From Chloranthus sessilifolius (taxonomy: Eukaryota; Streptophyta; Magnoliopsida; Chloranthales; Chloranthaceae): a DNA stretch of 64,000 bases. Positions 17,451-52,647 of this stretch are shown piece after piece. Within the stretch, counting starts at the first letter, position 1. The number at the start of each line of letters is the position of its first letter. Position numbers and translations under genes: made by a program. Under the pieces are notes generated by a model, which was not told the origin of the DNA, made no database searches, and was given only the letters and a program-made list of their open reading frames with translations. The stretch covers positions 74,589,301-74,653,300 of the forward strand of contig CM037592.1 in the NCBI GenBank assembly GCA_021018995.1. Reading direction: 5' to 3'.

Positions 17451-17804
17451 CCAAACCCATTATTCAAAACCCCGCAATGGCTTAACCGAGTTAGAATTCA
17501 CTCACCCATGAGTCAGTTGTTTGACGCTGACTTTATGGGTGGATTCTCTCACAGACTCTCTTCCAGGGACACCCCCAAGCATTATAAAGCATTTACAAAT
17601 TCCCATACTTTCAAGGCATTAAATTCATACATCATGAAAAGCATTCAAATACTACATTATCATTCAATCACTTGAAATTATCAAACAAGGGGAGCTGGTA
17701 TAAAAGTAGGCATTAAAGCACTAAACTCAGATTCCAACAAGATTGCTAACAATTCTTATCAACTGTAAAATACATATCATACAACGGTGCACAGTTCTTA
17801 ATCA
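17451..17804 (-). other. Gag-to-ORF3 linker of element B
   Basis: About 350 bp of AT-rich non-coding sequence between the gag stop and the ORF3 leader. This is where pol lies in element A. No protease or RT similarity seen in any frame. Confidence 0.7.
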
Positions 17805-19357: not shown

Positions 19358-19659
19358 ATCGCAAAAGAATGATTTAACACTAACAAATTTATCGAACTAG
19401 TTTACTGCTATTAAAAGAATACATTTAAACTATCCTAGATATTGCTAAATTTTTTTTTTTAAGAAAGATAGACAGAGCTTTAAAAGTCAGAGAGTTTGCA
19501 AACAGAGTTAGATAAGCTCCAATTATAGTCCAACTATCCTTCACTGCTGCTGTCTAGATCTATAAGAAAGGTTCCAAATTATGTTAGCAGTATCAATTAT
19601 TCACATGTGCAAAGAATACTAAGAATACAAAAACTAAGGGGCTACTAATAGATCATCTT
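19358..19659 (-). other. 5' leader of element B
   Basis: About 300 bp between the primer site and gag, AT-rich, with a run of T near 19448. It resembles the A leader at the primer-site end (CTACTAATAGATC). No coding signal. Confidence 0.7.
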
Positions 19660-19677
19660 TCCCCAGCAACGGCGCCA
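19660..19677 (-). other. Primer binding site of element B
   Basis: Minus strand TGGCGCCGTTGCTGGGGA, six bases from the 5' LTR end. It is the least decayed match here to the Athila-type tRNA site besides that of C. Confidence 0.88.
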
Positions 19678-20996
19678 AAAACTTGTTGATGACTTCTGGT
19701 GTGCTTACATTATTGGTTGGTGGTGAAAGTTATTTAAAAATCAAAGACAGAGTAAAATAGGGGGTGAATCCAGCACAACTCAGAAGTCCTAGACCTACAA
19801 GATACAAGGTCCTTTGTAGCAAGTTTTGATAAGTAAGAGTTTGTCCCACAGGGAAAGGTGATCTAGAGCTCCAAGGGAGCCATCTCTAGTAGTCCCTCCA
19901 GATCTGTCTACAGATCTGGCAGTCCTAGAAGGAGGGGAGTTTAAGGTCACTTATTCTAAGTATTTTAATATCTAAACTACAGAAAGGGTTGAGAGAATGG
20001 ATGGAGTGTGGAAAATAAGTATAAAAAGGGTGAGAAGTATGTTATTGAGCCAAGGTCAGAGAAGTTTTGTAACTCAGATTCAGATCTGATGTTATAGAAA
20101 TCCTATCTAGAGGCTACATTATCACCACTGAGGAGAAAGGATCCAACCCATCACTCTGCCATGATTCCACCCTTAAGGCTATAACCTGTCCACTTAAATG
20201 GTCACAGATTATCCCATAGGGGAGCCACTATCCAGGGATGGGTCAAAACATAACAAGTAAATCATTGCAGGCACTATTTCATCCAGGCTACCAGCTCAAG
20301 AATCCATAGGGAACCTCAACCTCTAAAGTTCTATATGTGGGGCTAAGGCTGTAGGACCATGATAGCCCAGACACATAGAACCAGTAAGAGATTGAGTACA
20401 ACCTTCAATCTAGCTGTCCATTGCTTGAGCGAGGCTACAATGGTCCAGTCACCAGCCTACAATCTCTATAACCAGATCATATTCAACATCTGATGGCAGA
20501 TCTACACAAATATAGGGGACTCTCCCTCTGTACAATCTCTCACTAGGCTTCTACAAGCTCAGGTGTAAAGAAGAAGGATCCATCTTGGATCGGTGGATTA
20601 GAATCACCTTAAGGATATAATCTGTCCACTTAAATGGTCACAGACTATCCCAGAGGTTATCCTCCTCACGGAGCCCAAAACAAAACAAGAATATCGCTAC
20701 TACCACCATGCTCACAAGGCTACCAGCTCAAGCTCCCATGGGGATTTCAGATCTAGTGGGTCCTGTGGTGGGGCTAAGGCTGTAGGACCATGATAGCCCA
20801 GACACACAGGTCACTTGGATCTGAATGGCCCTTAGAATCAGTCCTCCATTGCTTTGAAACATAGACAAAGCAATGGCGGATCACAAGGTAGCAGCCTTGC
20901 ACAGAGCATCTCACACATAAATACCAATCCCCCAAAGTACAGATCCTATTACAGAACTTTCATTGATCTAATTCAAAAACAAATACAAAGGCATAG

Positions 20997-21010
20997 CCAG
21001 CAAGTGCTGG
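20997..21010 (-). other. R/U5 palindrome of B LTR
   Basis: CCAGCA-CT-TGCTGG read on the minus strand, about 115 bp downstream of the TATA box and so near the 5' end of the genomic RNA. It is present in the B copies and in D (54092-54105) and partly decayed in A (36009-36026). It could be a dimerisation or packaging hairpin; that is a guess. Confidence 0.45.
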
Positions 21011-21122
21011 ACTATGGAGAGAAGGAAAGAAAAAGAAAATTACTTACTGCTAAAAAGAAAGAGAAAAGAAAAAATTATCTGAGATGGGTTCCCAGATACC
21101 TAAACCTAAAGCTAGGTATGGG

Positions 21123-21189
21123 TTTATATAACAGTGGGGTGGCGGCGCATTAGGGTTAGGAAACCCTAATTTTAACGATGCCACGTGGC
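21123..21189 (-). promoter_or_regulatory. LTR core promoter of element B
   Basis: On the minus strand, 5' to 3': G-box GCCACGTGGC (21180-21189), inverted teloboxes ATTAGGGTT/AACCCTAAT with a 4-bp gap (21149-21170), and TATATAAA (21123-21130). G-boxes bind bZIP/bHLH factors and teloboxes occur in plant growth-gene promoters; activity here is inferred. Confidence 0.65.
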
Positions 21190-22263
21190 CTAATAATGAT
21201 CCTTGGATGCCTCGAGGAGCGTGCATAAAGATTTGAGCATGGGAGTGCGTGCCCTAATCGCTGGAAATACCCAGAAGGTTCTCTGCTGAAGAGATGGAAG
21301 TTTAGGGTCAGAGCTTCGCTAGGTAGCTATAGTTTCCTAGACTTGTCACGTGGTAGCTCTTTGCTCTTCGCTAGGATGATTTGACACTGAAGCTTCAGCC
21401 ATCGCGAGGTTGCCTTGGTTTGCTCTTCAGGCAGTCGCGCGGTAGAGAATTACGCTCTCGCTGGATTAGGCTTCGCGAGGTTGAATAGAAAACACAGTCT
21501 TAAGTGTCGCGGGGTTGAAATTCAAGCAGTCGCGAGGTCGCTCGGTCTTCACTGGGCTGATCTTCACGAGAGTGAATTTGAGCAGCGCGAGAACTTTGCG
21601 AGCACTTCTCTTTACTGGACTTCGCGAGTTACCTCACGAGGCTCTACTGAGTTCTAAACTGCGCGAGGTTCTATGTCTCACTTGATCTTCGCGAGATTGG
21701 CTTTACCTTCGCCAGGATGTTTTCTTTCTTGAATGGTGCAAGAACTGCGTGAGGTGTTCTTCTTCTGATAATTATATCCCGCGGTGACTGCGCGACAGCT
21801 GTGCGAGGAATCTTCTAAAGCTCTCTCTCCTCAACCGTTATGAGCGAACTGTGTGAGATTGAGAAAGGTCTGCTTTGAACTGCGTGACACTGCACGATGT
21901 GTTCTACTCTTGAGCTTCACGAGAGCTGTGCGAGTTTGAGTTTCTGAAGCTCATCAGTCACTCATCTGCGCGAGAGGTTACTGTAAAGTCTTGGGAAGCT
22001 CAGTTGAATTGCGCGAGGCATATTTCTCCTGAATCCTCTAAAGCTTGGGTCAGCTGCGCGAGGCTCATTTCAGGTCTGGATTCAGAGTTCATTCTTCTGA
22101 GGGATATCTGGTGCTAAAGCAGGCTCCTTAACAGGATTCCTGGCCTTATTTCACTGCTGATTATTACCTACACAAAATACTTAATAAGAACTTGTTAGGT
22201 GGCTAAGCATCTAATCAAAGGTTAAGTTAAGGGGTGAAAAGTGGTACTTTTCAGGTCTTAACA

Positions 22264-25420: not shown

Positions 25421-27973
25421 GTGGTACCCAAAAAATCTGGCATAACAGTGATCACAACTGAGTTTAGAGAGTTGAGACCAGCCAGGGAGACCACTGGCTG
25501 GAGAGTTTGCATCGATTATCGAAAACTCAACTCCAAGACCAGAAAAGACCACTTCCCTCTCCCCTTTATTGATCAAATTTTGGACAAGTTGGTGGGGAAA
25601 GCTTTTTACTGTTTTCTTGATGGGTACTCAGGATACAATCAAATCCCTGTGCATCCTCTTGATCAAGAGAAAACTACTTTTACTTGTCCTTTTGGCACCT
25701 TTGCTTACAGAAGGATGCCTTTTGGACTATGTAATGCCCCAGCTACCTTTCAGAGGTGTATGTATGCCATCTTTTTTGATATGATTGATAAATTTTTAGA
25801 AATTTTTATCGTTGATTTTTTGGTTTATGGGGATAGCTTTGACCAATGTCTACAACACCTCCATCAGGTCTTACAAAGATGTGAAGAGACCGATTTGGTC
25901 TTAAGTTGGGAAAAGAGCCACTTCATGGTAACACAAGGAATTGTGTTGGGCCATGTGGTCTCTAAAGATGGAATTGAGGTAGACAAGGCCAAAGTTGACC
26001 TCATTGCAAATTTGCCCCCTCCAAGAACAGTCAAGCAAATCAGATCTTTCCTTGGACATGCTGGATTCTACAGGAGGTTTATCAAAGACTTCAGTAAAAT
26101 TGCTAAACCATTGTGCCACCTGCTCTGCCAGGATGTGCCCTTTGACTTCTCTGCTGAATGTATTAAAGCTTTTGAAACTTTGAAAATTTGCCTCACCTCT
26201 GCCCCTGTACTCCAAACACCTGACTATACCCTGCCCTTTGAGTTGATGTGTGATGCATCTGACTTGGCAATAGGTGCTATCTTGGGCCAGAGAAAAGATA
26301 AGCTACCTGTGGTCATTGCATATCTCAGCAAATCACTTACTGAAGCTCAGCTGAACTACACAACCACTGAGAAAGAGCTTCAGGCAGTGGTTTTTGCAGT
26401 GGACAAGTTTAGACCTTACCTACTTGGGTCTAAAATTGTCATCTTTACTGACCACTCAGCATTAAAGTACCTACTGTCCAAGAAGGATGCAAAGCCCAAA
26501 TTGATTAGATGGATACTCCTGTTGCAGGAGTTTGACATCGAAATCAAGGACAAGAAGGGTGTAGAAAATGTGGTGGCTGACCACTTGTCCAGAATTATGT
26601 TGGAGAAAGGTGTTGATGACCTTGCTATAAATGATGTCTTCCCTGATGAGCAACTATTTGCCATCCAATATTTAGTTCCTTGGTATGCATATATTGTCAA
26701 TTATCTAGTTATAGGTAAGATTTCTACCCATTGGACAAAAATGGACAAAGACCTATTTTTCTCACAGGTCAAATTCTTTTTCTGGGATGAACCTTGCTTG
26801 TACAAGTATTGTGCAGACCAAATCATTCGAAAATGTGTTCCCGAAAGTGATGTCCTCAATATTCTGGCCATGTGCCATGAAAATGCATGTGGGGGTCACT
26901 TTAGTGAGAGAAAAATAGCTGACAAAGTGTTGCAGTGTGGGTTCTATTGGCCTTCTCTTTTTAAGGATATCAATACACACTGCAAGACCTGTGAAAGATG
27001 TCAGAAATTAGGAGGGCTGTCCAAACGACATTCAATGCCTTTACAGCCCATCCTTGTTGTAGAACTGTTTGATGTATGGGGTATTGACTTTATGGGCCCC
27101 TTTCTTCCTTTAAATTGTTTTCATTTCATCTTAGTGGCAGTGGACTATGTTTCCAAATGGGTAAAAGCTATTGCCAATAGAACTAATGATAATCAGGTTG
27201 TCCTCAAGTTTATAAAGCAGAATATCTTCTCCAGATTTGGTACCCCTAGAGCCATTATCAGTGATGGGGGGAGCCATTTCTTCAATAGAAATTTCAAAAG
27301 CTTGCACAAGAAATATTTTGTTACCCATAGGATTGCTACTCCCTACCACCCACAAACCAGTGGGCAAGTTGAAATTTCAAATAGGGAGATCAAGCATATC
27401 CTTGAGAAGACTGTGAGGACTGATAGGAAAGATTGGGATGACAAGCTTGATGGTGCACTGTGGGCTTATAGGACTGCCTATAAGACTCCCATCGGTATGT
27501 CCCCTTTCAGACTGGTCTATGGCAAGGCCTGTCATCTCCCAATGGAGTTAGAGCACAAGGCCTATTGGGCCATTAAACATTTAAATTTAAACCTAACTTC
27601 TGCTAGTCATCACAGGTTACTGCAGCTGTCCGAATTGGAAGAGCTAAGGATGGATGCATATGCTAATGCCAGGATCTACAAGGAAAGGTCCAAAGGTTTC
27701 TTTGACAAAGGGCTGTTGAGAAAGAGTTTCAGAGCTGGTGATAAGGTTTGGCTGTTTAACTCTAAACTTAAATTTTTTCTTGGTAAATTGAAATCCAGAT
27801 GGGAAGGTCCCTACATCATCGTGCATGTTTCCCCATCTGGTGCTATGGAAATCAAGGATCCCATGTCTGGGAGAACCTTGAAGGTGAATGGTCAGAGGCT
27901 TAAGCTTTATTTTAAAAAACCTGCCGAATTCATGGACACCATTCACTTTCAAGGGGATCCTTCTTCAAACTGA
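25421..27973 (+). pseudogene. pol: Pol of A: RT, RNase H and integrase
   Basis: 850 residues without a stop. RT has [10 protein letters not shown] (D67) and [14 protein letters not shown], but the catalytic FMDD is FIVD (V131-D132), which should abolish activity. RNase H has D278, E319, D344 and D387. Integrase has zinc residues H486, H493, C524 and C527, the core D556, D615 and E651 (exact DX35E), and a C-terminal GPY motif at 797-799. Length and order fit Ty3/gypsy pol. The product would copy element RNA in cytoplasmic particles and insert it in the nucleus. It is the only full pol in the window and could have served B and D before decay; that is inference. Confidence 0.93.
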
Positions 27974-29109: not shown

Positions 29110-32100
29110 ATGGCTCCAAAAATTACACAGAAGAGAAAGGGGAAGGACAAGGACCTTGCTGAGACCACCCCTAAAAAGGCCAAGACTTCAAAGTCACCCA
29201 AAAAGGGAAAGGAAGTGGTTGAGGAGGCGGCGGAACCAACCTCTAAGTTCTTTGCTCCTTCTGAGCTCATGATGTCAATTCTATTAGAGCCTGAGACAGC
29301 CTTTGATCTACCATTTTTTTAGAAGGAACACTCTCGCCCTGCATGCATTTATGAAAAAGCGGGCCTGATGCCATTAATGAGAGGAATTTCAGCACTAGCC
29401 TACCCTAGGCTAGTGCAGCTGTTCTATCAGCACATCAGAGTCAAGAAGGACAAAGATGGACAAGAGTGCTTGCTGGTGCTGATTGATGACTTTGATATGT
29501 TAGTGACCCCTAAGGTGATTGCTGAAGTTTTGGGCATCCCAGCAGCATTCGACCGTAGCTGTGGATATGGCCCCCCTCTGAGTGCATCGATGGATACAAT
29601 TGCACGAGCCTTAACTAGAGGATTAAAAGCCACAGGGGACTTGATCAGAAGGAGAGAATTGGAACCTGAACTCCTGTTCATTGACCAAGTCCTGTGAAAG
29701 AACATATATTGCTCAGGACATCAGGAGAGGAGAACCCCCATTGCGGATGCTGTCTACTACTTCCACATGGGCCATGACTTTCATGCAGTCTGGCTAATTT
29801 TTGAGGCAATGAAAGACATAGTGGATAAGATAGGGATAAACAAGAAGCCTCACACACTCCCTTATGCCAAGATCATTACTTTGCTGATACTCAAGGGGGG
29901 ATACAAGATAGGAAAGACTGAGCAGACCACCACCCTTGCCCCTACTACCTTTGCCAAGAGGCAATGGGGAATCAGCAGGAGCTTGATGAAGGCCCAGAAG
30001 AAGAAGAAAGCTGAGGCTCAGGCCACCTTGCAAGTAAGAAAGGCGGGGATCAGGGTCTACCCTTGCTACCAAGGAGGTGCCCCCAGAGCCTATCAGTACC
30101 ATCTCTGCAGCAGCACCCATTCCACCTCCACCTTTTACTCCTACATCCACTACCCCTCTTGCATCCATCTCTCACCCCCCTCTGTTTCCATTCTCCATGC
30201 CCACTCCCCCTTCACCTATGCTTGGTACTTAGGAGGACACCCCATGCCCTACCTTACCTCAGTACACAGCCACAATTCCCCATCAACTCCACATAAACCT
30301 GCAAGCCCTCCACTTACTTCCTATAAAAAATGAAAGACCACTGAGACAATTCCAACCATATCCCAGACACCACCCTCAATCCCTTCTATCCCCATTGACA
30401 CACCACACCTTGAAGAAACCACCACCCCAGCCATACCTACTACATCCCCCCTCACAGACATTGACTTAACCCTTAACACATCCCTAGGCTTCCAAGCCTT
30501 TCTGTCTACCTTCCTTGAAACAATGCCTACCGACTACACCCCTCTCCCAGACTCCCCAACTACCTCACAGAATCACTCCCCAGAACCCCACTCTTCCCCT
30601 CCTTCCACTTTCCACCATGCGCCTTCCTCACCTTTCAAACTAGGACCCTCTTCTTCACTGCCCCAACCTCCCAGCCCTGACACACTAACCCTCATCCTAT
30701 CCTTTATCCAAGACATCCAAGCCCATTTATCCACCAATACCCAAAAACAGGACGGATCACGGTGAACACACCTCCATCCTATCCACCCTACACACCTTAA
30801 ACAACCCACCATCCCTCCCCACCACTTCAACCCCCGGTCCTGTCCCACACAAAACCCAAACCGACTTCCCTCCACTCACCTCCCACCATCAACACCACCC
30901 CCATTCCCTTTCATACCTTTCACCATTCCCATTTCCTCCTCCCCCATCACCCCTACTCCTACTGAGCCTACCCCATTCTCATTTCCCCCTATACCCTCCT
31001 TCCCACCTCTTATCCTACCACCTCCAACTTACACTGACAAAAAGACACAGAGTGACCCCGAACTTATCCCCTTCCCCACACAGACTTTACCCCTGTTACC
31101 CCCCCTTCTCCCCCCAGGACCAATCACAGTTTGCTCCTTCCACTTCCTATCTGCCCATCGCACCAAAACATCATTTTTACAGCCCTCCCTACCTCACCAT
31201 CCTCCATCGCATGAGGGATAATGCTTACCTTAGTAAGGATGTCCTGAGGGGCATGGCCAAACTTCGCCAATCCATTGAGACCCCCTGCTGGAGCTGATCG
31301 ACGAAATGAAGGAGGCCCACAGAAAGCAACTTCTGGGCATCTCCTTGGGGTGGAAAAATATCCTGGAGGATTATCAGAAGACCAAGGCTACAGCTGAGTT
31401 CAATGCGCTGAATTTGGTGTTGGCGAAAGCAAATGCTGCTACAGAGAAGGCGCGGGCCAGAACGTTTGAAAAGAGGCTCAAAAATGCTCAAGAGATCTTC
31501 AACATCCAAAAAGATATCCATGAGACTGACCTCCTCAAACACCAAATTCAGATTGCCTAATTGGAATCTGCATTGGCTTCTGCCAAAAATATTCCTCTGC
31601 AGTCCACCCCAATCTCTGTTCAAATGCCCGACCTAGAGCCTAAAGCTACTCCATCTACAGCTGCCCAGTCTGAGGGGACACAACCAAAGACTCAACAAGA
31701 AAAAGGAAAGGCCCCAGCTGCCCCTCCTCCGTCACCTCCTCCAAAGCAGCCTCCACCTCCCAAGGCCTCTATTGCACCTCCACAAGAGCAAACTTATCCT
31801 AAGCAGAGGAAAGTCACTGCTAAGAGGACTGCTCCCAAAGCTGCCCCTTTAAAATTGGCAAAGAGCCAGCTGCCCAGTCTGAGGAGGCAAATTCCCCTGG
31901 CCAACCTGAGTCCCAAGAAAGAGGGAAATCCCTAGTGGTCCCTACTGAGAAAGCCAAAGCCAAAGCCAAAGGAAAAGGAAAATCCCCTGCCACCCCCTAC
32001 TAAGCGCAAAGGAAAAGCCCCTCAGGAACCCACGGAACTAAAAGTACCCAAGCAACCAAAAGTAAGGGTGAGGGCACCTAAAGCTCCAACTGCAAAGAAA

Positions 32101-33110: not shown

Positions 33111-34851
33111 TTCCATACTATTCAGTTAGCATTTTCTGTTTCTCTGCTTTCTTATGTGTTTATTTTTGTTTCTCTGCCTGAAATCTACTGCATTTTCTCA
33201 CCTTTGAACCAGTAAGGACACTGCTCCTCATGGTTTGGAGGTGTGGCAGGATAGGTCTGCCAATAGAATAGTTAATTTTAGTGCAGTAATAGTAGTAAAA
33301 CTGGGATGAATAAAGTTAATTTCTACTTACCTTGATACAATGAGAAAAATTGTAAACAATTTAAATATTTTTGCAAAATTTTTGAAACATAAAAAGTTAA
33401 AAAATTCTTGACACCACCATAAAGCTAATATTAGAAATTTTTGTTAGGTAGTACTCAGTAAACCTAAGAGGAGAGAAACAAATGAAAATATACCCCATGG
33501 GTTAAATTTGATGACCATACTCAGTGAGATTAGGGCCCAGCATTTTCTTTTGAAAATTGTTTTTGGCATTATTTATGCTCTAAGGACTGATTGAATCAGG
33601 ACTTTTTCACTAGAATTTGTGCACCTCCAAATCAAAACTAATTGACAGCACTCATGAGACTAAGGAAATGATCCAAGGCCCTCATTTGAACAGTTTGAGC
33701 CTGAAAATGCAACCTTTTAAAATCAGCCCTTTTGCATACACTAGTTGAGCCTTAAAATCATATTTTTCTTTCACATACACCAGAACACTGGCACCTTAAC
33801 CTCATGACCTGAGTCAACCTTACCCTCACTCTGAGAATTCAGAAGGTAAAGGAGAAGGAGGTAAAGATACTGAGAATGGTCCAATATTCTGTGGAAGGGG
33901 AAGAAAAGAAACTTGTGAACAGTTGTGTATCAAAGGCAGTTGTGTGGCATTTCATCAAAAGAATGAATAAAGAATTAAAAAGAGAAAAAGAAAGAGAAGT
34001 CTAGAGGACAACATCATCTAAAAATTGAAAAGAAGAGGAGAAGCAGCCACTTTGAGTCTGAAATATAAAAAGAAAGATGAAGTTTTTGCTTAAATGAAGG
34101 TTGTGAAGTCATGAACCACTCCTTACCTTGCTGATTTCTTAATTTGGTCTCTCTTTTTACCCCTTTATTCTTTACACCCCTCTGCCATAAGCCACATTAC
34201 AACCCATTCAAAAAGACCTTGTGGATCCAAAGTTAAATGACCTGTCATGTGGAGATGAGGAGTTGTCCAATCTATGGTAAAAATTCTTGAAGATGTCAGA
34301 AATTAGAAGTTTTGCCTATGCTCATGCTTGCAGGTCCATTTGGGGTCTGTAACTGCTCTTAAGCTGATGTGAATGTGAAACACCCTTAGATTGATAATGT
34401 TGAGAGTTAGCCCTAGTAAAAATTGGGTCTAAATTTTAACCTCATTGGGGTTGTATCCAACCTGAATTTTGAACTAAAGGCAAACCGGGTACTGATTTTT
34501 ATACATTGAAATTCTAATATTAAATGAATGGTGGTCAGACAAACACATGTTAACTTTTAAGTTTTAAATGGCCTGCAACATTGCTGCAATTTTCTCTTAG
34601 TGTTAAAAAAAAATTAGGTGTGGAATGAAACTTTAAACATAAGAATTTGTGTTGTCATTATCTGCACTATACTTAACTGATTCTAATGGTGAAGTTTGTG
34701 GGTGTCTTCGCTAAAAACCCTCAGGAGACTTCACTCCTCCACTAGGGATCACCTAGGGGTTTAAAAGACTTGGTACATATGCTAAATGTACCCGTGATCT
34801 CTACGAAAGTGGTATTTAATTACAGCTTTGCTAAGGGACTAGCAAAGATTA
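33111..34851 (+). other. 3' untranslated region of element A
   Basis: Non-coding, AT-rich, recognisably related to the 3' regions of B, C and D over more than 1 kb, with the strongest similarity in the last 150 bp. No gene seen. Confidence 0.8.
34723..34847 (+). ncRNA. Conserved hairpin chain before the PPT (element A)
   Basis: Four consecutive inverted repeats: AGGAG-ACTTCA-CTCCT (34723-34738), CTAGG-GATCA-CCTAG (34742-34756), GGTACAT-7-ATGTACC (34772-34792), CTTTGCTA-AGGGAC-TAGCAAAG (34826-34847). Equivalents occur in B (11454-11595, minus), C (41405-41552) and D (44734-44879, minus). The third stem shows two paired changes between A and D. It is probably a cis-acting RNA structure of the genomic RNA 3' end, not an independent RNA gene. 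Confidence 0.55.
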
Positions 34852-34863
34852 GGTTTGGGGGTG
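34852..34863 (+). other. Polypurine tract of element A
   Basis: GGTTTGGGGGTG, directly before the 3' LTR start TGTTAAGACC; the plus-strand DNA primer site. Confidence 0.88.
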
Positions 34864-37359
34864 TGTTAAGACCTGAAAAGTACCACTTTTCACCCCTTAA
34901 CTTAATCTCTGTTAGACCCTTAATTATTTAATAAATGTCTTTTGAGTCTATTCTGTAGGTAATAAGTAGCAGCTGCAAATAAACCCCTAACCATGCTAAG
35001 AAGCTCACTGTTGCTCCAGAACTACCTCAGCAGAATGAAGGATGAACTCGGACAGAGAGTTGGCTGCTACACAGGCACATCAAAGCAGAAACAAACCAAG
35101 AGATAATGCCTCGCGCAGATGTCGCAGGGTTCAATTAAACCAGAGATAATGCCTTCACAAAGTTGTCGTGAGCTTCTGAAGACAGCACACAAACTGGTTG
35201 CGCAGTCTTCGCGTCGTTCTCGCTCGATTTGGTGCCAGAAACAATTAAAAAGCAGACTTCGCGAGGTCCTCACGAGGCTCAGTCTTAAGCGCTCGTGCAG
35301 TCTTGGATAGCTCAAGAAAGGAGTCTTCAATCGTCGCACGATTCATTGAAGTGAGAGAGCTCCAGGCACTCCCGCGGGCAGTTGTCGCGCAGTGGCCGTG
35401 GGATACAAACCTCCAAGGAAATGCTCGCGCGATCCATAGGCTCATGAACACTGCTTCTTTGCGAGGATTCATCGCGAGATTCACCAAGGGACGAACCGCG
35501 CGAGAAATTCCCGCGCCATTCAAAGCTGAAAGAACAATCTTACGACAGCCATTAGTATCCCGTGATGACCAAAATGTCAATCCTGCAACTGCAAGAGCTT
35601 CAAGGCAAAGCAACCCCGCGACGCCAATTCTACCATGCGACAAGATCTACAAATCCTTTCTACTCTGCGAGGATCGGGTTCTAAACTTCTCCCCACTTCT
35701 GCAAGGGTAATTTGGGAACTTTCAGTAACTAGGGCACGCAGTCCAATGCTCTAATGTCCGTGCACATACCCTGAGGCATCCAAGGGACAAGAATGGGCTG
35801 AAATTGCATTAATGAAATTAGGGTTTTCCTAACCCTAATTCACACACAGCCGACTGCTATATAAGCCTAAGCCTAGCTTAGGTTTAAGGACCTTTTTTTG
35901 GACGAACTTCAGACTTAAACTTTTTCAGACTTCGTCTTCTCGATTAAGCTGAAAATTTCAGTAGGCTAAGTTTGGTTCTAGGTAGTCTCTTTTTCCTTTT
36001 TCTCTCCATAGTCCAGCACTTGCTAGATATGCCTTTTGTATGTTTATTTGGTATAGATTTTAATGGAGTTTTTTGTAATAGGATCTGTTACATGTATGGG
36101 ACGTTGTTTTTGTTGTGAGTTGTGCTGTACAAAGCTGCTGCCTTGAGATCCTCCATTGCTAAGTTGTTTTGTAAGCAATGGGGGATTGTTTTTAAGGTTT
36201 TATGTAGATCCAAGTGATCAGTGTGTCCAGGTTAGGCACATTGCAGGCCTTCCCCCACCACAGGATCCACTAAATCTAAATTCCCATGGGAGCTTGCGCT
36301 GGTAGCCTTGTGAACATGGTGGCGGCAATAATGTTCTTATTCTGTCCTAAACCTTTGTGAGGACGATAGCTTCTATGGATAGTCTATGACCATTCAAGTG
36401 GACAGATTATAGCCGTAGGGTGAGGCCAATCCGCAGAACTAAGACATATTCTTCTTCTCTGCACTTGTGCTTGTAGCCTTGTGAGAGATTGTGTAGTGAT
36501 AGACTCCCCTATATTTGTATAGATCCGCCATCAGATTGCAGATCAGATTTGGCTATAGAGATTGTAGGCTTGTGAATGGGTCACTGCAGTCTTTCTAAAG
36601 CAGTGAACAGCCATGCTAAAAAGCTAGTACTCAAACTCTTGCTGGTCCTGTGTGTCCAGGCTCATGCACTTTGTAGGGCTAGCCCCACATGCATAACTTT
36701 TGAGGATGAGGTTCCTATGGATTCTTGAGCTTGTAGCCTGGATGAAGTAGTGGTTACAATGGTAAACTTGTTCTGACCCATCTTTGGATAGTGGTTCCCC
36801 TATTGGATAGTCTATGACCATTAAAGTGGACATGTTATATCCATAAGGGATTGGATTATGGCACAGGGATGAGTTGGATTCTTTCTCTTCTTTGGTGATG
36901 ATGTAGCCATTGGACAGGATTTCTATAGCAACAGATCTGAGTCTGAGTTACAAGACCCCATCAGATCTATACCTAATAACATACTTCTCACCCTCTTTTA
37001 TTTATTTTCTCACACTCCATCTGTTTTCGCAACCTTTCTATAGTTTAGACATTAGGACACCTTAGAATTTAGATTATAGTGACCCTAAATCCCCTTCCAT
37101 TAAGGATTGCCAGATTTGTAGTTAGATCTGGAGAGCCTACTAAAGATAGCTCCCTTAGAGCTTTAGATCAATTTTCCCTGTGGGACAAACTCTTACTTAT
37201 CAAAACTTGCTACAACAGGCCCTGTATCTTGTAGGACTATGCATATTTTAGGCTTGCTATCCTGTAATTTCATCCCACCTTTCATTCATTTTCATTCACT
37301 CCATTCTTATCACTGTCTTCAATAAAGTCTGTAGCAAGCACTTAAAAATTATCCTAACA
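34864..37359 (+). repeat. 3' LTR of element A
   Basis: 2496 bp, TGTTAAG...CCTAACA. U3 carries CGCGAG motifs (about 35100-35650). A telobox pair ATTAGGGTT/AACCCTAAT (35817-35839) precedes TATATAA (35858-35864). U5 ends with a T-rich 3' part. Its first 40 bases match the B LTR, but the last ~100 bases differ from B, so A and B are sister subfamilies with different U5 ends. Confidence 0.92.
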
Positions 37360-40039: not shown

Positions 40040-41556
40040 TTTCTTTTAGAAAAGAGGAAATTAAAAACTTTTTAAAACTGAAATCTGTTGTAGTTCTAAC
40101 ATTTTCATGAAGTAAATGTCAAGAATTTTCAAAAATTGATGCTTAGTGAACCTGAAAAGAGAGAAATTTGTGTGGATATACCCCAATAAATTTGATGGAA
40201 GGCCATAACCAGTGACACTTGGGCCTGTAAAATTTCTTTGAAGAATGTCTTGGCAATTTTTCTACTCTAAGGAGTGATTGGATCAAGTCTTGATCACTAG
40301 GAGTTACGAAAATCTAAATTGAAACAGCTTGACAACATTCATGACATTGAGGACATAAAGTAAGGCCATACCTTTGACAGTTTGAGCTTAAAAATTTCCC
40401 ACCTTTGAGTTGCCCTTGATACACACCATTTTGAGCCTTGAAAATTTAAGCTTTTCTTTGATAAAAACCAGAAAGTGTGAATCCAAAACTCAGTGACCTG
40501 ATGCAACTTGACCCTCACTCTGAGATTTCAGAAGGTAGAGCTCGTTTGACATCTGGTTGAAAGAAAGCACATTTGGTGGTAGCTGTGGCGTGCCAGCCCA
40601 TAAAAAGTAAAACAAAATGGAGAAAAATACAAAAGAAAAGCATACAAAAGGAAGAAAAGAAAAATAGAAAAGCAAAACAAAAGAATGAAAAAGAGAAGTC
40701 ATTTCATTGAAAGATTGAAAAAAAGATTAGAAACTGGTCACTTCAAATCTGAAAATTCAAGAAATAGATGGAATTGTGTTGAAATGAAGAAGGTGAAGTC
40801 ATGAATCACCTCCTTACTTTAGTAATTTCTCAATTTTGACTCCTATTCCACCCTTTTATTCTTTGTAAATTTCAACCATAAGTCACATTACAACCCAATA
40901 AAAAAGTCCTTACTGATTTGAAATGGATTGAGCTGTCATGTGGAGATGTGGATTTGTGTGATCTATGGTGAAAAGAGTTAGAAAATTTCAGAACTTAGAA
41001 TGATGCTTATGCTCATGTTTGCAGTCCTATTTAAGGGTTGTAACTGCTCTTGAGCTGTATGGAATGATGCACCCTTCTATTTTTATTGTGAGTGATAGCC
41101 CTGATAAGACTTGGGTCTAAAATCCAATTTGTTTGGGGCAATATCAAAATAGAATTCTCGAATGAAAGGTAAACTCTGCATTAATTTTCATGCACAATGC
41201 CTTGACATGAATTGATTGATGGTGAAGGAATTATAGCAGAATTTCAAGATTAAATTGCTGATTTTCTGCTAAGAATCCTCTAAAAATTGAATAGACAAAG
41301 TGTGGAATGAATTTTATTTTACTTAAAACTCTGTTTTAACATGTTGCATTAATATTAACTGCTTTTATTGGAGAAGTTTGTGGGTATCTTCACTGAAAAC
41401 CCTCAGGAGACTCCAGTCCTCCACTAGGGATCACCTAGGGGTTTTAAAAGGCTTGGTGTATGTGCCAAATGCACATGTGTTCCCTATGAAAGTGGCATTT
41501 ATTTTTGGAGGTTCGTTGCTTTAAATTTCACTTTGCTTGAGGACTAGCAAAGGTTA
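40040..41556 (+). other. 3' untranslated region of element C
   Basis: Matches the A 3' region from about 33360 on. It ends with the hairpin chain: CTAGG-GATCA-CCTAG at 41424-41438, GGTGTAT/ATGCACA at 41455-41475, CTTTGCT/AGCAAAG at 41531-41552. No gene seen. Confidence 0.8.
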
Positions 41557-41568
41557 GGTTTGGGGGTG
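41557..41568 (+). other. Polypurine tract of element C
   Basis: GGTTTGGGGGTG immediately before the LTR start TGTTAGTC. Confidence 0.85.
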
Positions 41569-42006
41569 TGTTAGTCAATGATTTTGATCATATTTTACCC
41601 TTTAAACCTGGCTTTTGCTAAGCCTCAAAGTACTTAATAATTGCTCTTTAGTGTTGATTCGTAGTTAGGAAGAAATTATGCAGCTATCCATGCTTATGTG
41701 CTAAGAGGAGGAGATTAGAAGCAACCAAGTGCTTCAATCTACATCAACAGTTGCAAACAAATATGTGGTTCGGCTCATTCAAGCAAACAACTGTGAAGAG
41801 GACTCAAAGGGCTGCAAAAGTATACATTTTAAGCTAAGGAGCAGATCCCGAGCATGAGTTGCACATTTCAGCAAATGGGCACACTAAAGAAGACATCAAA
41901 ACGATTTACCATTTGCAGAAATTGTCCCCAAGCAAACATGAAGCGACTTGAGCAGCTGAGCATTAAAACAGTATAAAGCAATATGAGAGCAGCTGTGTGC
42001 ACACAA
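41569..42006 (+). repeat. 3' LTR of element C, first part
   Basis: First 438 bp, cut by element D. The last five bases CACAA (42002-42006) are the left target copy of D. Confidence 0.85.
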
Positions 42007-44718
42007 TGTTGTTGTGGGATTAAAGTGTGTGCTGATCTTATTGTGTGGTGAGAATAAATTAAAAATCAAAGTAAAATAAAAGATGGAAACAGCACAACTA
42101 AAATAATCCTAAGCCTGCAAGATACAGTGATATTGTAGCAAGTTTTGATAAGTAAGAGTTTGTCCCACAGAGAAATTGATCTAAAACCTAAAATGGGCAA
42201 TAATAGTAAGCCTCCAGATCTGGCTACAGATCTGACAATCCTAAAGAAAGGGAGTTGGGTGTCACGTCAACACTAAATTACCTACTAAAAAAAGAAAGAA
42301 ATAAAGTGTAATCCTATCCTAAGAAAGGGTTATAAAGAAGGGGGTGATGGTGTATTAAAATAATGATAAAAGGGTGAAAAGTAAGCAGTTTAGGTTAAAG
42401 GTTCATTTAGTTAAGTAACTCAGATTTAGAGCTCTCTCTGCAGCAAATCCTTACTGAAGCGCTATCAATAACCTCAACAAGATAGAAGTATCCAACTTAA
42501 CCCATGCCATTTGGGGAGCTCTTAAGGCTATAGTCTATCCACTCAAATGGCCATAGTCTATCTAATAGAGTCTATCAAATCTCATTGATCAAGCCAAAAA
42601 AGGTAACCTAAACCAAAGGAGTGAGCTGATCAAACCTCATCCAATGAATCAAATCAGGCCATGAATACCACTCCAGACACTATGTTTGCCAGTGCTACAA
42701 CCTCTTCAGATCTGCGCACAGATATGGCTGACATTCATAGGGGTATTAATCCTAGGAAGATCAGATGGCAATCAAGAGATCTAAAGGTTAAGCGAATGGG
42801 TAATTCCAAAATACATAAATCCGATCGAGAATCTAATGGAACCAAAAGATCTATAGATTGAAATAGACTTTAAATCAACACTCTTATTGCTTAAAAATAG
42901 CTTGCAATAAACTGTCCTCCCAGATGTAATCACTATAGAGAAGCTAGATCTAACATCTGATAGCGGTCAAGTAAGACAGAGGGGAGCCTGTTCATGCACA
43001 ATCTCTCACTAAGCTACAAGCTCAAGTACTGAGAAAAAGAATCCATCTCATATCAGTTATCAAGTTTGCCCTAGGGTTATAGTCTGTCCACTTTAATGGT
43101 CACAGGCTATCCACAGACGCTCCTTACCTATAAATGCTGAGATAGAACATGAAAACTGTTGTCAGCCACCATGGTCCCAAGGTTACAAGCTCAAGCTTCC
43201 ATGGGTCTTTCAATAATCTCAAATCCTAAATGTATGCTATAGCTTGAACAGAACTATGGACAAATAGGAAGATAATAGATTGAGTAAGCATTCAAATATA
43301 AATTCCATTGATCTAATGTTACTAACAATTAAATCCCTCAAGGTAGCAGCCTTGCACACAATAGCTCAACACCAAATCCCAATGTTTAAATGACCTATTA
43401 TAAAACTTAAATAAAACTACACCTAAATGCTTACCAAAGATTTAGCCAGCAAGTGCTGGGCTAAGAGAGAAGAAAAAATGAAAAAAGAGACAATCAAACC
43501 CTAACCCTAACCCTAATCTGCTTGAGCTCTCGGCCGACAAAGGTTGAAGGAAAGAGTGATTGATAAAATTTCTAAGTTACAAGCGTAGCTTATATACTTA
43601 GTCCCAATGTTGTGGCTGAGAAGAGAGTAAAGCCTAATCTTTTCAAGCAGATGTGGCACTATTATATTCCATGGAAGTCTTGGAATGTGTGCATCAGAAT
43701 ATGTACCTCGGGGTGTGTGCCTTAGACCTGGGGAAATTCCTAAAAGGTCCTTGAGTTAAGATTGAGAAGTGGAGAGCTCGAGTTTCGTCTGCATATCACT
43801 TCTGTCATGCAGCTATAGAGTTTTGAATATCGCTGTCTCATGCAGTAGAGCTTTGGATGATCGCGTAACTACTTCAGCTCTGAATACACTCATACAGAAG
43901 AGCTTCAGGTGCTTAGCTTGCTCGTGCAGAAGAGCTTCAGGAACTTCATTCATGAGGTACTCACACAGATGCCTTTGCATCTCACTCAGTATAGATTTAA
44001 ACTTTTAGTCGTGCGAGAGCTACGTGAGAGAACTTGGGCGTCTCTCTCTTCCTGAGCCATGCGAGAGCTGTGTGAGGTTTTTACTATTGTTTGCACCAAT
44101 TAGTCTTGCGAGGTAGTGCGTGCTGCTACATTAAGGTTTGATCCTCACGAGAACTTCATGAATTATATTTCTGGAAGCATAGTGCGCGAGAGCTCCGCGA
44201 GCTCCTTCACACATTGATTTCAGCTGAAGTGCATGAGTGTTGTGCCAGAGGACCTTTGTGATAACCCCTTCATTGAGTTGTGTGACTTCTTCACAAGCTC
44301 TTTTATGTTGCATATCTTAGCTGTGCGAGGGAGCTCCACCAGTAAATTGAACAACGCGAGGCAGCACCTCAGTTGTGCGAGATAGTTTAATGGCTCCTCT
44401 GCTACTATGCATATGCTTTTGTTGCAGCTTTCTCCACTCTCACCTATACTTCTTTCATCTTCTGGACTTTCTGGGTCCATTATGACATGCAAAATAGTCA
44501 TCATGGTGTGTACCACTATGGTGTTCCATCACTTTCTGGTTCAGCTGTCATCATTTGCATGAATTCTCTCTTCTTGGCACCAAAAGCATAAACTTTGTGT
44601 TAAGCTGCACAATTTATTCTTAACTATAAAACAAGCTAAAAAGAATTTATTAGTCAGCTTCAAGGTCCAGCAAAGGCTAGGTTAAGCGATGAAAAGTGGT
44701 ACTTTTTAGTGATTAACA
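42007..44718 (-). repeat. 3' LTR of element D
   Basis: 2712 bp, TGTTGTTGTGGG...GATTAACA. It holds a three-unit telomere-like stretch (AAACCCTAACCCTAAC..., 43496-43516) downstream of the TATA box in minus-strand sense, and degenerate GCGAG motifs (43980-44350). Confidence 0.92.
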
Positions 44719-44730
44719 CCCCCCAAGCCT
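44719..44730 (-). other. Polypurine tract of element D
   Basis: Minus strand AGGCTTGGGGGG next to the LTR start TGTTAATCAC; slightly different from GGTTTGGGGGTG of A, B and C. Confidence 0.8.
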
Positions 44731-46626
44731 AATCTTTTCTAGTCCTTGAGCAAAGCAATGTTTAAACATCTACCCTAAGAATGTAAATGCCACTTTCGTA
44801 GGGAGCACAGATGCATTTAGCTTATGCATCAAGCCTTTTAGACCCCTAGGTGACCCCTAGTAGAGGAGTGAAGTCTCCTAAGGGTTTCAGTGAAGGTACC
44901 CATAAACTTCTCAATAAAACAGTTAACAAAAGTGCACATAGTGGTTAATCTGTTTGAAATAAATATAGTTCACTTCATCCTTGCTCTGTCAAAGTTAGAG
45001 GAATTCTAAAGCAGTATGTACAAAAAATTTAACACCTCAGTCATGCGTGCATGATCATTATATCCAATCAACTGACATCAAGAAAACAATGTGTAAAATA
45101 GTACCAAGCTTTCCAGTACATCAAAATTCAGGTTCACACAATGCCCCAATGATTTCAATCTCAGACCCAATGCTCACCAGGGCTGTCTCTCATAACTGAA
45201 TATAAGGGTGGATCATTTCACATAAGCTCAAGAGCAGTTACATACCCCAAATTGTTTTGCAAGCATGAGCATAGGCAGTTCTTCTAATTTCTGACATCAT
45301 AAAGTACTTCTCACCATAGATTTAACATTCCTTCATTTTCACATGACAGTTCATTTGACTTTAGATCAACAAGGGCTTTTCAGGGATTGTAATGTGACTT
45401 ATTGGTATGGGTTGTAAAGAATAAAAGGAGTAAAAAGGGATTCAAAATTGAGAAATCAAACACAGGTAGGAGATGATTCATGACTTCACCTTCTTCATTT
45501 CAACATAGCTTTTTCTTCTTTTGAAATATCAGAGCTAAAGTGGCCAACTTCTTCTCTTCTTCTCAACATTTCCAATGAAATTCTTTTTTTGACTTCTCAT
45601 TCTTTTCTTTTTATTTTTCTTTATTTATTTTTTTTTGTTTTTTTTTTGTATTTATATTTTTTTTATGATGGTTGCTACACATCTATAACTGCTACACTAT
45701 TATTTACCTATCTCCTCCTCTCTTCTTCTTCTTTCACCAAATGTTAAATTTTGCTCACTTATCTTCAACATCCTCTCCTTTACCTTCTGAATTGTCAGAG
45801 TGAGGGTAGGGCTGAAACAAGTTAAGAGGTTCAGGTTCAAGTACTTTGGTGTTTGTTGAAAAAAAATGGGGCTTTCAGGCTCAAAAAGTGTATGCACAAG
45901 GGTAGTTTCACAGGTTTGATCTTTTAGGCTCAAACTGTCCAAATGAAGGCCTTGATCCTTTCCTTAGTCTCATGATTACTTTCAAACAGCCTCAACTTGG
46001 GGTGTCTAACTTCTAGTGAAAAGGGCTTGACTCAGTCAGTCCTTAGAAAAGAAAATTTTTTGCCACAGACACTCTTAAAAAAATTTTATAGGCTCAAAGC
46101 TCACTGGGTATGGTCTTCAATTTCACTCAAAGGGGTATGCTTTCACATGTTTCTTTCTTATTGGTTCACTAACTACTGCTTTATAAAAAGTTTCCTGATG
46201 TTAACCTCATAGAAGTATTGATTTTCAAAGGATTTTAGCGTTAAAAAGGTCTATACAATGTTTAAATTTTCTCACTTTCAATATTGCTTAGGTGAAATTC
46301 ATTATATTTATTCCTCACTTAGTTAAGATTGCTGCACTTAGGTTAACTATATCATTGGCAATCCTTGCCACACCCCCAAACCTATGAGGAGCAGTGTCCT
46401 CATTGGTTCAAAGATAAGAGGGCATGTGCAGCTGGGAACACATAGAAAATCGACACTAAAATAAAGCAAATAAAAGCAAGAAATAAGGCACATACAAACA
46501 ACTAAAACAAACAAACTAGTTATGAAGCAGAAATGGAAAGCAAACAAAACTAAACTAAAAATGAATTTTATTGCTAAAATAAACATGTGTACAAAAAGTA
46601 TATCCTAACTAAGTACATGTATAAAA
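44731..46626 (-). other. 3' untranslated region of element D
   Basis: About 1.9 kb. It holds the hairpin chain (44734-44879) with a perfect GATGCAT/ATGCATC stem, a T-rich tract near 45595-45665, and the CACTGCTCCTCAT block (about 46390, minus) shortly after the ORF3 stop. No gene seen. Confidence 0.8.
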
Positions 46627-49608
46627 CTAATCATCTGAATCCTCTTCAACAGCAGGTGGATCTTGAATTCCTTTGCCCTTTGCTTGTCTCAAAGCAGCAG
46701 TAGCAGCAGACTGTAACCTTTTGGAAGTAGTGCTTCTTGGCTTGGAGGAACTTTTACTTTTCGGAGTGGGCTTTGGCTTGGAAGTAGGTTATTTGATTTT
46801 GATTCCAGGCCTGGCTTTGTTAGGTTCCTTGGGTGTAGGGGTTGTTTCCTGGTGAGGTACATCAGGGTTTAATTGTTTGGAAATAGCTTCTGCTAACTCC
46901 CGGTCACTATGTTCAGTTAAGTTCTTCTGCAGTGCTGCAATAGTCACTTCATAGTCAAAAACTTTGTCCTCTACTACTCGCAAGTCTACCTGTAATTTCT
47001 TAATGACATCCTCCATCCCCTCAGCCCTAGTCTTTTCCTCATGTATTGTATCATTATCTCTTGCCAGCCATGTTTGACTCTCTTCCTTTCCAATTTATGA
47101 GTGAGTATCAGAAGTTTGATTTTCTCCAGGAGGGGTTGCTGCACAGAATGTCTAAGGACAGCCATTCCTTTGACCACATCCCTCTTGATATAAGCATTGT
47201 TCTTCATGGCTCAAAGAAGGGTGTAGTATGGAGGTGTAGGGTTGAAAGAGGCTGGTAGTATGGGCTTGACATCACTATAGGAAGGGCTAGCCAGCAAAGA
47301 TGGAGGGGTGGGTGGTGGCAAGGGTGTTGGGGAATCTAGCACCTCAGGGTCAGTTTGGGTGGCAGATGCTTTAAGGGTAATGGGAACAGATTCCAAGGGG
47401 GTAGAAACAGGAGATGATTCTGCTATGGTTAAAGGAGGGGTAGATTGGGGTGGGGTAGGCAAAGGGGAATCTAGGGGGACAAATGGCTATTGGGAAGGAT
47501 GGGTTCAATGTGACAGTGTGGATTGAATGGCTTGTAAGCTTGTTTGAATGGAGGTTTGGTTTTGGAGGGTGGAGTTCATGGATTGTAGATTGGTTGTGAT
47601 TGATGATTGGGTTTGGGTATCGGCCAAAACTTGAGCTTGGATGGAAAGTAATAGGTTAAAGATATTAGGTAGGAAATCAGGGGTGGGGGTGGAATTGGTT
47701 GAAATTGGGAGGTGGGTGCGTGGGAGAAGGTGGTGGCCTGTGGGGACTATGGAGGAGGGGTGAAATGTGGAGGGGGAGGGGAATCAGGGAGAGGGGTAAA
47801 CTTATAATTGATGTCCCCTATAATAGAGGACATCATGGCTGAGTATCCCTCTTCTAAAAGAGGGATTTGGTCATGGGTGGGTGGAAATGGGATTGATTCG
47901 TCTAGAGGCTCACAGGTCACAGATTCAAAAGGTATGGAAGTGTCAATGGGCTGAGAGGGGGTAGTGGAAGAGGTATGTGGGATGCCAAAAGTTGGAGGCT
48001 CAGGCTTAAAGGCTTGGGCTGGTGAGGGAGTTGGAAGGTCAAAGGTTTGGTCTGGTATGGTTGTGGTTTCAGTGGTTGGGATGGTTTGGGAGATAGAGGT
48101 GGGTAGGGGTTTCTTCTGTGCTTTGGTTAATCTTCTTTTCTTTTTATAGGTTGTTAGCACAGGTGAGGGTAGTTGAGGGATTGGTATGGTTTCTGCAGAT
48201 GTGGAATGGATGGGTGAGCTTGGTGTGCCTAATGTGATGGGTGAGGGAATGGTTAAGGAAGCAGCAGGTATGAGGGCTGTGGGGATGGGTAAAGTTAGCT
48301 GGAATGAGGGTAAGGGAACTATGGAAGGTTGTGAGGCTTGGGTTGAGGGAGTAGTAGCTGGTAAGGTGATGGCTTCAGAAATGGGGGTGGTGCTGGCTGG
48401 CACAAGTGAATGGGTTGCCTGAGAGAGGGCAGCAGAGGGTGGAGCCACAGATGCAGCAACATCAGCAACCTCAGAGGTTGCTGGCACATCAGCCTTCTTC
48501 TTTCTCTTCTCAATGAGAGTGCCACTGATCCCCCACTGATTTTTCCACAATTTTTGGGGTTCAGGGCAATTATTTCTTTATTCATTTGAAATTGATATCC
48601 TCCAAGCTTCAGCATGGCTATAATAAGCCTACAGTAGAGAAGGGAATGGGGTTTCTTGTTTGTGTTCACCTTCTTCACAATGTCTTTTATGCCCTCAATA
48701 ATTAGCTTGGCAGCATCCAAGTTATAGTTTTTGTGAAAGGGGAAGAGTGCATCAGCAATAGGAGATCTCCTCTCCTACTCATGTCCAGAGCAATAGACAT
48801 TTTTCCTCAGCACCCAATCCATAAATCTGAGGTGGGAGTGCATATCTCTCTTCCTTATTGATACCCCTGATGCAGTGATTCCTCCAGTCAGCTCCTTGGT
48901 TATCTCTAGGATGGTGGCTCTCAAAGGGGGACCTAAGCCACATTTAGGGCTATACCTGGCTGGTATCTCAAGAATTTTAGCAATTACTGCCTGATTGAAC
49001 AACATCTCAAATTTGTTTATCAACACCAGCAGTGTTGGGTTCCCATCATCCCCAGTTTTGATTCTGATATTCTGGTAAAACAATTGAACTAGTCTAGGGA
49101 AGACTAGGTGCATTGGGGGCCTCTGCAGGGGTAGCAATGTGGCTTTTGTGAGGTACTCCATGACAGCAGCTGTTTCAGATAGCTCCTCAAAGAAAGCCTT
49201 ATAAAAAATTGTCTCAGATTCTACCTTGATTGCTGCAATAAATTCAGATGGGACCCTGAGGTATTCATTATCTTCTTCATCTTCATCCTCAGGGGCCCCA
49301 GGGGCTACTTCCTTGCCCATTACTTGTTTCTTCTTTGACTTCTCTGGGCTTTTAGATGGTGGGTGCTCTTTGGCCCTCTTCTTAGGAGCAAATTTCTTTT
49401 TGGTACCTTGGGCATAAGAGGCCACACCTTTGCATTTGTACACAGTTTTCTCAACTTAGGTCTCCTCAAAGGGTGAAGTTACCACAGGGGTCTCTACATT
49501 GGAGACCTCTGCAATCCTTACAGATTTCTGAGTAGGCATAGGGCACCCAGCAGGTGGTGGGGTTACCAAAGTAGACAAGGTGTCTGAGAATTTTGAACCC
49601 ATGGCCAT
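46627..49608 (-). pseudogene. ORF3 of element D, broken
   Basis: Chosen start MAMGSKFSD at 49608; the frame is open from 49662. It ends ...EEDSDD and TAG at 46627-46629. Lys/Ser-rich N terminus (PPSKSPEKSKKKQVMGKEV), an acidic run (EDEDEEDNE), then the globular domain (VFPRLVQLFYQNIRIK, LLVLINKFEMLFNQAVIAKI, RKNVYCSGHE) up to a TAG at 48775. It continues in frame (IKDIVKKVNTNKKPHSLLYCRLIIAML), has a frame change near 48550 at K-x-QWGIS, then a Pro/Thr/Ser-rich region to about 47750 and further breaks. Near 47210 comes the MKNNAYIKRDVVKGMAVLRH segment, a coiled coil (46850-47016) and a short basic tail. No signal peptide or membrane helix seen. Role unknown. Confidence 0.82.
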
Positions 49609-50400
49609 AACTATCAAATTTCTCCAAATTAGGGTTTCAAAATCCCAGCAATTGTAATGCACTCTTTCATAAATAAAACAGACCCCAAATTGCTCTCTTC
49701 TTACATTAGAGTAATGTCCAATTAAATCAAGAGAGAGTGAGAAATCTTATCAAATGAAAGTTAGGGTTTCACCTCACACGTTGCAAAAATGTCCAAATTC
49801 TCCCAAACCTAGCTCAAAGTGGCAAGGAGGTGATGGGGAGCAAAAATGTATGAGGAAACTAGCTAAGCTTTAGTGGAAATGGTAGTATAGAAGAAAAGAA
49901 AAAAGGGGGAGCTCGGAAGTGCATAGGGAAAGTTAGGGCGAAAAGATAGAATGAAGAAAATGAAGCAATTCTTAGGGTTTATAGGGCTTAACCCATGCTT
50001 CGCACAGTTGTCGCTAAGTTCTTGTGGAGTACATTCCTCGCGCAGTATACAACTAACCTCGCGAGAGCCTCAGTCGCAAAGATAAGTAGAACCTCGCGAA
50101 GACAGATTTAAAAGCTTCAAGTGCCTCGCGAGGCTCTTCGCAGAGTTAAATTCAGGCCCAAGTGTGCGAAGTAGTTGCTCATATCTCACACAACTAGAGT
50201 AGTGAAGCCTCGTGAGCATTAAAATATGAGTCTCAAGCATCTCGTGGGGCTACTATCAGGCTGCAGCATACGTCCTTGTGCTCGTGAAGCTCTTGCGCAG
50301 TACAAAATATTCATCAAAACTCTGCGAGAAAACTTTAGGCAGCTCATGAGCATTAAAATTTAGGCCATTTAGCCTCGCGAGAGGGCAACACTTAAACTTT
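49609..50400 (-). promoter_or_regulatory. ORF3 leader and candidate internal promoter of D
   Basis: On the minus strand: a CGCGAG-type cluster (about 49998-50391), a TATAAA overlapping a telobox (CTATAAACCCTAAG, 49971-49984), an AT-rich leader and the ORF3 ATG. It corresponds in position to 28310-29109 of A and 16996-17450 of B. Confidence 0.5.
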
Positions 50401-52629: not shown

Positions 52630-52647
52630 TCCCCGACAGCAGCGCCA
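52630..52647 (-). other. Primer binding site of element D
   Basis: Minus strand TGGCGCTGCTGTCGGGGA, six bases from the LTR; two C-to-T changes relative to C. Confidence 0.85.

Follow-up and report, generated by a model that had tools for sequence, protein, structure and literature searches.

Hairpins that span the junction between the polypurine tract (PPT) and the 3′ LTR are already known from Sireviruses and from HIV. Sireviruses, which are Ty1/copia elements, carry an inverted repeat around this junction that has been proposed to aid formation of the PPT primer (Bousios et al. 2010, PMC2829016, in the part consulted). HIV, although it belongs to a different element class, likewise has a PPT-containing hairpin formed with U3, and the part of PMC3601003 used here urges that LTR retroelements other than Sireviruses and HIV be searched systematically for PPT-containing hairpins. 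The 3′ end described below is one such example, from a Ty3/gypsy lineage; its PPT lies in the stem instead of the loop. As in Sireviruses, a left arm lies in the linker by the PPT and a right arm lies inverted in the 3′ LTR, about 28 bp from its start. In contrast to the Sirevirus structure, in which the left arm stops at the PPT and the PPT stands at the edge of the loop (same part of PMC2829016), the PPT is here part of the stem; moreover, the element is of the Ty3/gypsy type and a cluster of hairpins lies further upstream. No earlier report of a junction hairpin in the Athila lineage was encountered in the literature found, although a prior description in Wright and Voytas 2002 is possible. 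Since hairpins at the PPT/LTR junction are already known, what may be new is the Ty3/gypsy case, whose PPT lies in the stem.

The window, by which we mean the whole 64-kb stretch of plant DNA analysed, is packed with nested Ty3/gypsy retrotransposons. Element A, on the + strand, comprises in this order gag, pol, a post-pol coding region, a 3′ non-coding stretch, the PPT and, from 34864 onwards, the 3′ LTR. Its pol (25421–27973, +; reverse transcriptase, RNase H and integrase) shows the gypsy-type succession of the Pfam domains RVT_1, RT_RNaseH, Integrase_H2C2 and rve; the copia-type order is absent, and a Sirevirus identity was rejected on this ground. Elements B, C and D were mapped by self-comparison of the window. 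Element C lies on the + strand and element D, with an LTR pair that is 87% identical, on the − strand, as does element B, whose 5′ LTR starts near 22263 and whose gag (18494–19396, −) is recognized by Pfam Retrotrans_gag. The 3′ end and LTR of element B occur as three tandem repeats at 32–12599, with a period of 5.5 kb and an identity of 94–96%, and the tandem units contain a 1.25-kb inverted copy of about 76–77% identity. When the element A pol was used in tblastn (E ≤ 1e-5), no pol match was obtained inside element B (11431–22263) or between the LTRs of element D (42007–55382); gag and later frames are present in both, and these two elements look non-autonomous. The regions past pol that code for proline-rich sequence show strong GC skew, of +0.59 in B (14001–16000) and −0.46 in A (30001–32000).

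For Athila, Calypso and Diaspora, the part of PMC1142308 consulted describes a PBS motif a few bases past the LTR, an ORF after pol (except in Diaspora, where only 128 bp separate pol from the PPT) and a further PPT-like motif inside the element; the part of PMC2829016 that we used also reports an additional PPT in the linker of Athila4 and Calypso. The present elements resemble this lineage in the placement of a PBS-like motif, the ORF after pol and the second internal PPT-like motif, and they differ from it in that neither a conserved hairpin block nor a junction inverted repeat is described in that part of PMC1142308. The motif TGGCGC, PBS-like by placement alone, stands a few bases past the 5′ LTR end in elements B and D, matching the PBS position of Calypso and Diaspora (PMC1142308, same part); in an Athila element the PBS would be expected to start about 5 bp past the LTR and to be complementary to tRNA-Asp. 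The internal PPT-like motif precedes the real PPT by about 1.6 kb, lying at 33216–33246 in A (+), about 13052–13139 in B (−) and 46328–46419 in D (−), flanked by small hairpins of which the downstream one reads GGCAG/CTGCC in A and GGCAA/TTGCC in D. Among 111 gag matches, the relatives with named sources were mostly flowering plants, apart from two odd bacterial labels. We take the gag resemblance to indicate the Athila lineage; on that assumption, with which the placement of the PBS-like motif also agrees, an Athila-like identity of the Ty3/gypsy elements of the window is a good lead.

All four elements carry at their 3′ ends a common block, which is present in A (+), in three tandem copies in B (B1, 453–642; B2, 5959–6148; B3, 11435–11624; all −), in C (41380–41571, +) and in D (44710–44906, −). 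The preliminary description, made from the letters of this DNA, had called the block the best-conserved non-coding sequence of the window. This holds for its first half, 34690–34764, where mean pairwise identity is 0.89 as against 0.37–0.78 in the other 21 intervals of 75 nt of the 3′ non-coding region (the values of seven intervals before 33715 resting on 1–3 of 6 pairs); it does not hold for the second half, which contains a variable spacer and reaches only 0.70. A coding role of the block is disfavoured, as the families defined below differ by single-base indels. No Rfam family matched at gathering score anywhere in the window, and with E up to 5 there were only two weak matches, both to the same scaRNA family and at 13 bits short of its gathering score of 65. 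Folded alone, the element A block has an ordinary energy, with z −1.58 and 9 of 200 shuffles reaching it.

Further copies were collected from the source genome assembly only (2.17 Gb, 32 contigs). Block queries from A, C and D, for which the 40 best of 2752, 4604 and 6096 candidates were scored, contributed 8, 30 and 30 loci, and two added queries (40 best of 7496 and of 3795) gave 11 and 29 more pieces. Another 80 copies were taken from the first 100 matches listed, all on one contig, to a 17-mer from the 3′ edge of the conserved hairpin cluster; this 17-mer has 10,038 exact copies in the genome and its reversed control none. It spans 34802–34818, and the 80 copies are uninformative there on a small GAAA hairpin and on the 3′ side of helix P1 (see below). 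With the six window copies counted, and three loci that are these same window copies left out, 191 sequences were aligned and fell into families of 8 (A), 5 (B), 31 (C), 30 (D), 73 (E), 14 (F) and 30 (G), later loci being placed by their nearest exemplar. Outside the assembly, viral contigs gave no match to the stem 2 pattern or to a 19-mer of the block, and relatives sought with the element A pol protein were none of them confirmed. A single match of the 19-mer in a prokaryote genome was discarded as chance, because it lies inside a long bacterial frame and the rest of the block is absent.

The clearest structure of the block is stem 3, a stem of 7 bp with a 7-nt loop at 34772–34792 (arms 34772–34778 and 34786–34792, +). 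Its sequences in A, B, C and D are those given in the preliminary description. The imperfect pairing noted in element C exists and looks like decay, since 21 of the 31 C-family copies have the perfect stem GGTGCAT/ATGCACC. Families E–G, with 117 copies, played no part in proposing the stem and were used as a held-out set; they differ from element A at a median of 6 of the 14 arm bases, and 98 of the 117 copies keep all seven pairs. Canonical pairs fill 506 of 518 cells in the A–D copies and 797 of 819 in the held-out ones. From family to family, G-C, G-U or A-U is seen at pair 1 and G-C, G-U, A-U or U-A at pair 2, while pair 4 alternates between A-U and G-C and pair 7 between U-A and C-G. Among 34,980 registers of 7 bp, stem 3 ranks first by canonical fraction, and its value of 0.974 was attained by 0 of 200 sets of a tree-based null (0.704 ± 0.066). 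This null is harsh on nearly invariant stems, and its values for stems S0–S2 were set aside as evidence. When each family is given the arm of another, the paired fraction of 0.971 drops to 0.852 on average, only 6 of 40,320 permutations, identity included, being as good.

On the tree, 11 branches that each carry three or more leaves show changes in stem 3, and the outcome is a standard pair every time, including same-branch double changes from GC to AT at pair 4 and from TA to CG at pair 7; at pair 2, however, the inferred root state is the non-pair G-A, which makes a single split of two of these 11 branches. Pairing is lost at pair 4 in two double changes, each confined to a single copy. In a tree-aware test of single pairs on the 188 distinct sequences, the two best pairs of stem 3 rank 2 and 4 of 37,950 (E 0.05 and 0.45), rank 1 being taken by a pair inside the LTR and outside every named stem. 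A looser count of paired-and-variable columns gave no excess (139, null mean 229.5), and its best register, of 3 pairs, was equalled in 9 of 100 null sets. Thus, covariation in the large alignment, which the preliminary description had put forward as a check, is strong for stem 3 at the level of the helix and modest at the level of the pair. The conservation of stem 3 is beyond chance and, on this comparative evidence, it is a true hairpin whose pairing was kept while the arms diverged. Its loop contains GCTAA (34781–34785) in 147 of 191 copies. Family F has it in 8 of 14 copies and family C, where GCCAA prevails, in no more than 3 of 31; this pentanucleotide is possibly a binding or kissing motif.

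Stem 3 belongs to what we call module 1, the hairpin cluster of the 3′ non-coding linker (34695–34807, + in element A). Stem S0, GGGT/ACCC (34700–34703 with 34717–34720, +), had gone unnamed in the preliminary description. Its pair 34700–34720 underwent two independent same-branch double changes from GC to AT, one branch of 3 leaves breaks pair 34702–34718, and 8 of 40,320 arm permutations were as good. Stem S1, AGGAG/CTCCT (34723–34727 with 34734–34738, +), is conserved without informative variation. Stem S2, CTAGG/CCTAG (34742–34746 with 34752–34756, +), is the stem 2 of the preliminary description; it is as described in all four elements and almost invariant. The variation claimed for its loop needs qualifying, GGTCA being found in only 2 of 30 D-family copies, of which 24 have GATCA. 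Being nearly invariant, S1 and S2 provide no covariation evidence and are no proof of structure. Selection on pairing, which had been claimed for the chain of hairpins, is thus borne out for stem 3 and for one pair of S0. It is not borne out for stem 4, whose core is invariant and with which a longer helix competes. RNAalifold applied to 24 real copies predicts a closed, branched domain in which a possible closing helix P1 (34695–34702 with 34800–34807, +) and a possible helix P2 (34715–34720 with 34757–34762, +) surround S1, S2 and stem 3. The two predicted helices show single-sided changes to or from G-U, and they exclude S0, so that two folds may alternate.

The linker–LTR helix, overlooked in the preliminary description, forms what we call module 2. 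In element A, the PPT, GGTTTGGGGGTG (34852–34863, +; aligned in A–D), adjoins the start of the 3′ LTR (TGTTAAG and onwards; 34864–34922, +). The 32 nt of linker that end with the PPT (34832–34863, +) are 81% complementary to 34891–34922, which are LTR positions 28–59. When 42 nt of linker and 74 nt of LTR were folded together, seven of eight family representatives formed one long helix of −35.2 to −42.1 kcal/mol, gaining about 14–30 kcal/mol over linker and LTR folded apart, and when the LTR part was mononucleotide-shuffled 200 times, only 0–1 versions folded as well; the representative of subfamily Et lacks the helix, 111 of 200 shuffles being as good. At least 20 linker–LTR pairs are predicted in 169 of 190 copies (one C copy dropped; Et 10 of 17, G 22 of 30). 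A Sirevirus-type inverted repeat with a linker arm and a 3′ LTR arm is therefore present, and the PPT is predicted to lie outside its loop. For the 116-nt stretch, 186 of 191 copies have a predicted probability above 0.5 of PPT–LTR pairing, as do 177 of 191 with the whole block folded, which would place the PPT in the stem of the predicted junction hairpin.

The two arms are, as far as sequence comparison can tell, co-adapted within families. By score, only 2 of 5,040 assignments of arms to families, identity included, were as good as the own-family one, in a test in which 183 of 191 copies passed the filter, at most 10 per family were sampled and the LTR start was taken two bases late. With at most 8 copies per family, 21 of 40,320 assignments were as good by energy and 179 of 40,320 by number of pairs, identity again included. 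Families C, E and G are nevertheless matched better by the LTR arm of D than by the one they carry themselves. Departures of single copies from the Watson–Crick pairs of their family are G-U in 138 cases and A-C in 125, about equal, as expected from neutral decay.

This predicted helix bears on stem 4 of the preliminary description, CTTTGCTA/TAGCAAAG (34826–34833 with 34840–34847, +). The stem is perfect in A and in B1; a single mismatch interrupts it in B2 and in B3, D has two mismatches, and C forms 7 pairs. All eight aligned pairs occur in 12 of 74 A–D copies and in 0 of 117 E–G copies, a count in which the alignment columns miss the stem of family F, shifted there by one base. Its 6-bp core TTTGCT/AGCAAA is exact in 139 of 191 copies, without informative variation, and 1542 of 40,320 arm swaps were as good, the swap counts of F suffering from the same shift. 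In the folds of seven of the eight family representatives, the 3′ arm of stem 4 is recruited by the linker–LTR helix, for which a far higher stability is predicted. The idea that stem 4, with its invariant core, is the principal fold beside the PPT was accordingly set aside, without being refuted.

Conservation of the block, the pairing of stem 3, the co-adaptation of the junction arms and the predicted folds lead us to consider it fairly probable that the genomic RNA of these Athila-like elements ends in two cis-acting structured modules, a hairpin cluster that would act as a recognition platform and a PPT–U3 hairpin that would act in plus-strand priming. Module 1, with stem 3 as the clearest part of this cluster of small hairpins, would be recognized by element or host proteins, for packaging or, alternatively, for export or stability. 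We propose recognition because the pol-less elements retain module 1 and because its distance to the LTR varies. Retroviral export and packaging signals are cis-acting structured RNAs in a non-coding genome end, and module 1 may be their analogue, with the difference that an Rfam match at gathering score is absent here. Module 2, the long imperfect hairpin in which the PPT, together with its upstream flank, pairs with an inverted copy in the LTR, would hold the PPT in duplex RNA up to the copying of the LTR arm by reverse transcriptase, and would thereby govern both the timing and the site of the RNase H cleavage that yields the plus-strand primer and the integrase-ready end. Since U3 is reverse-transcribed ahead of the PPT, the junction duplex would come apart immediately before the action of RNase H; copying of the LTR arm could then leave the short stem 4 free to form. 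More tentatively, it is tempting to speculate that module 1 is a portable 3′ signal by which Athila-like proteins pick their own RNAs, autonomous and pol-less alike, and that the PPT–U3 duplex is a timing switch that releases the PPT after copying of the LTR, stem 4 then forming. If true, such a switch for plus-strand priming would be undescribed for Ty3/gypsy elements in the literature found, and module 1 would be a concrete candidate for how abundant plant retroelements, pol-less copies included, are recognized, given the number of genomic copies of the 17-mer.

Placing the RNase H cut, one of the roles suggested for the hairpins in the preliminary description, suits the junction helix better than the cluster. 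Module 1 does lie upstream of the PPT in the copies of the window, as it should if it solely helped plus-strand priming; its distance to the LTR, however, has family medians of 45 to 109 nt, whereas that of stem 4 has a median of 38 nt in all seven families. The cluster is for this reason ill-suited to position the cut, and a purely priming function of module 1 appears improbable. It is somewhat less improbable, though still doubtful, that the selected form is DNA, either a cruciform or a single-stranded hairpin in minus-strand cDNA. Inverted repeats exist in DNA too, and the junction repeat takes in the LTR end used by integrase; nevertheless, among 280 family-majority pairs 22 are G-U and none is A-C (3 and 0 of 56 for stem 3 alone), which favours the + strand, weakly, because the structure was itself predicted by RNA rules.

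Of a different kind is the possibility that proteins such as transcription factors, integrase or Gag bind the DNA or the linear RNA and that most hairpins are incidental, which we regard as unlikely while giving it more weight than the other alternatives. S1, S2 and the core of stem 4 hardly vary and the fold energy of the A block is ordinary. Likewise, the preliminary description had named equal conservation of non-paired positions as evidence against its proposal, and this is what module 1 as a whole presents: family majorities disagree at 13 of its 74 unpaired columns and at 10 of the 48 paired ones, a comparison in which 80 of the 191 copies had been selected by a 17-mer that covers part of both column sets. 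Structure is hence not the sole constraint, and a constraint at the level of the sequence also acts. For stem 3 the picture is the reverse, since 8 of its 14 arm columns differ, more than in the rest of module 1, while pairing persists in the held-out families, and the co-adaptation of the junction arms would also be unexpected of a linear signal. Finally, reverse transcription or repair may copy one arm of an inverted repeat to the other and so create paired changes without selection on structure. Such templated correction is a known mutation mechanism at quasi-palindromes, and the double changes of stem 3 at pairs 4 and 7, each on one branch, are of the kind it would produce. Yet G-U is the majority state in whole families (pair 2 in B, pair 1 in F and in the main E group), pairs 1 and 2 pass through G-U on the tree, and the junction arms remain imperfect, with mismatches and bulges, so that this is the explanation to which we assign the smallest likelihood. 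The two-module structure of the RNA 3′ end is thus the reading that we retain. Elsewhere in the genome, at G000:C11:108566273-108606650, four F-family copies of the block follow one another at intervals of about 13.3 kb, as if entire elements were arrayed in tandem there.
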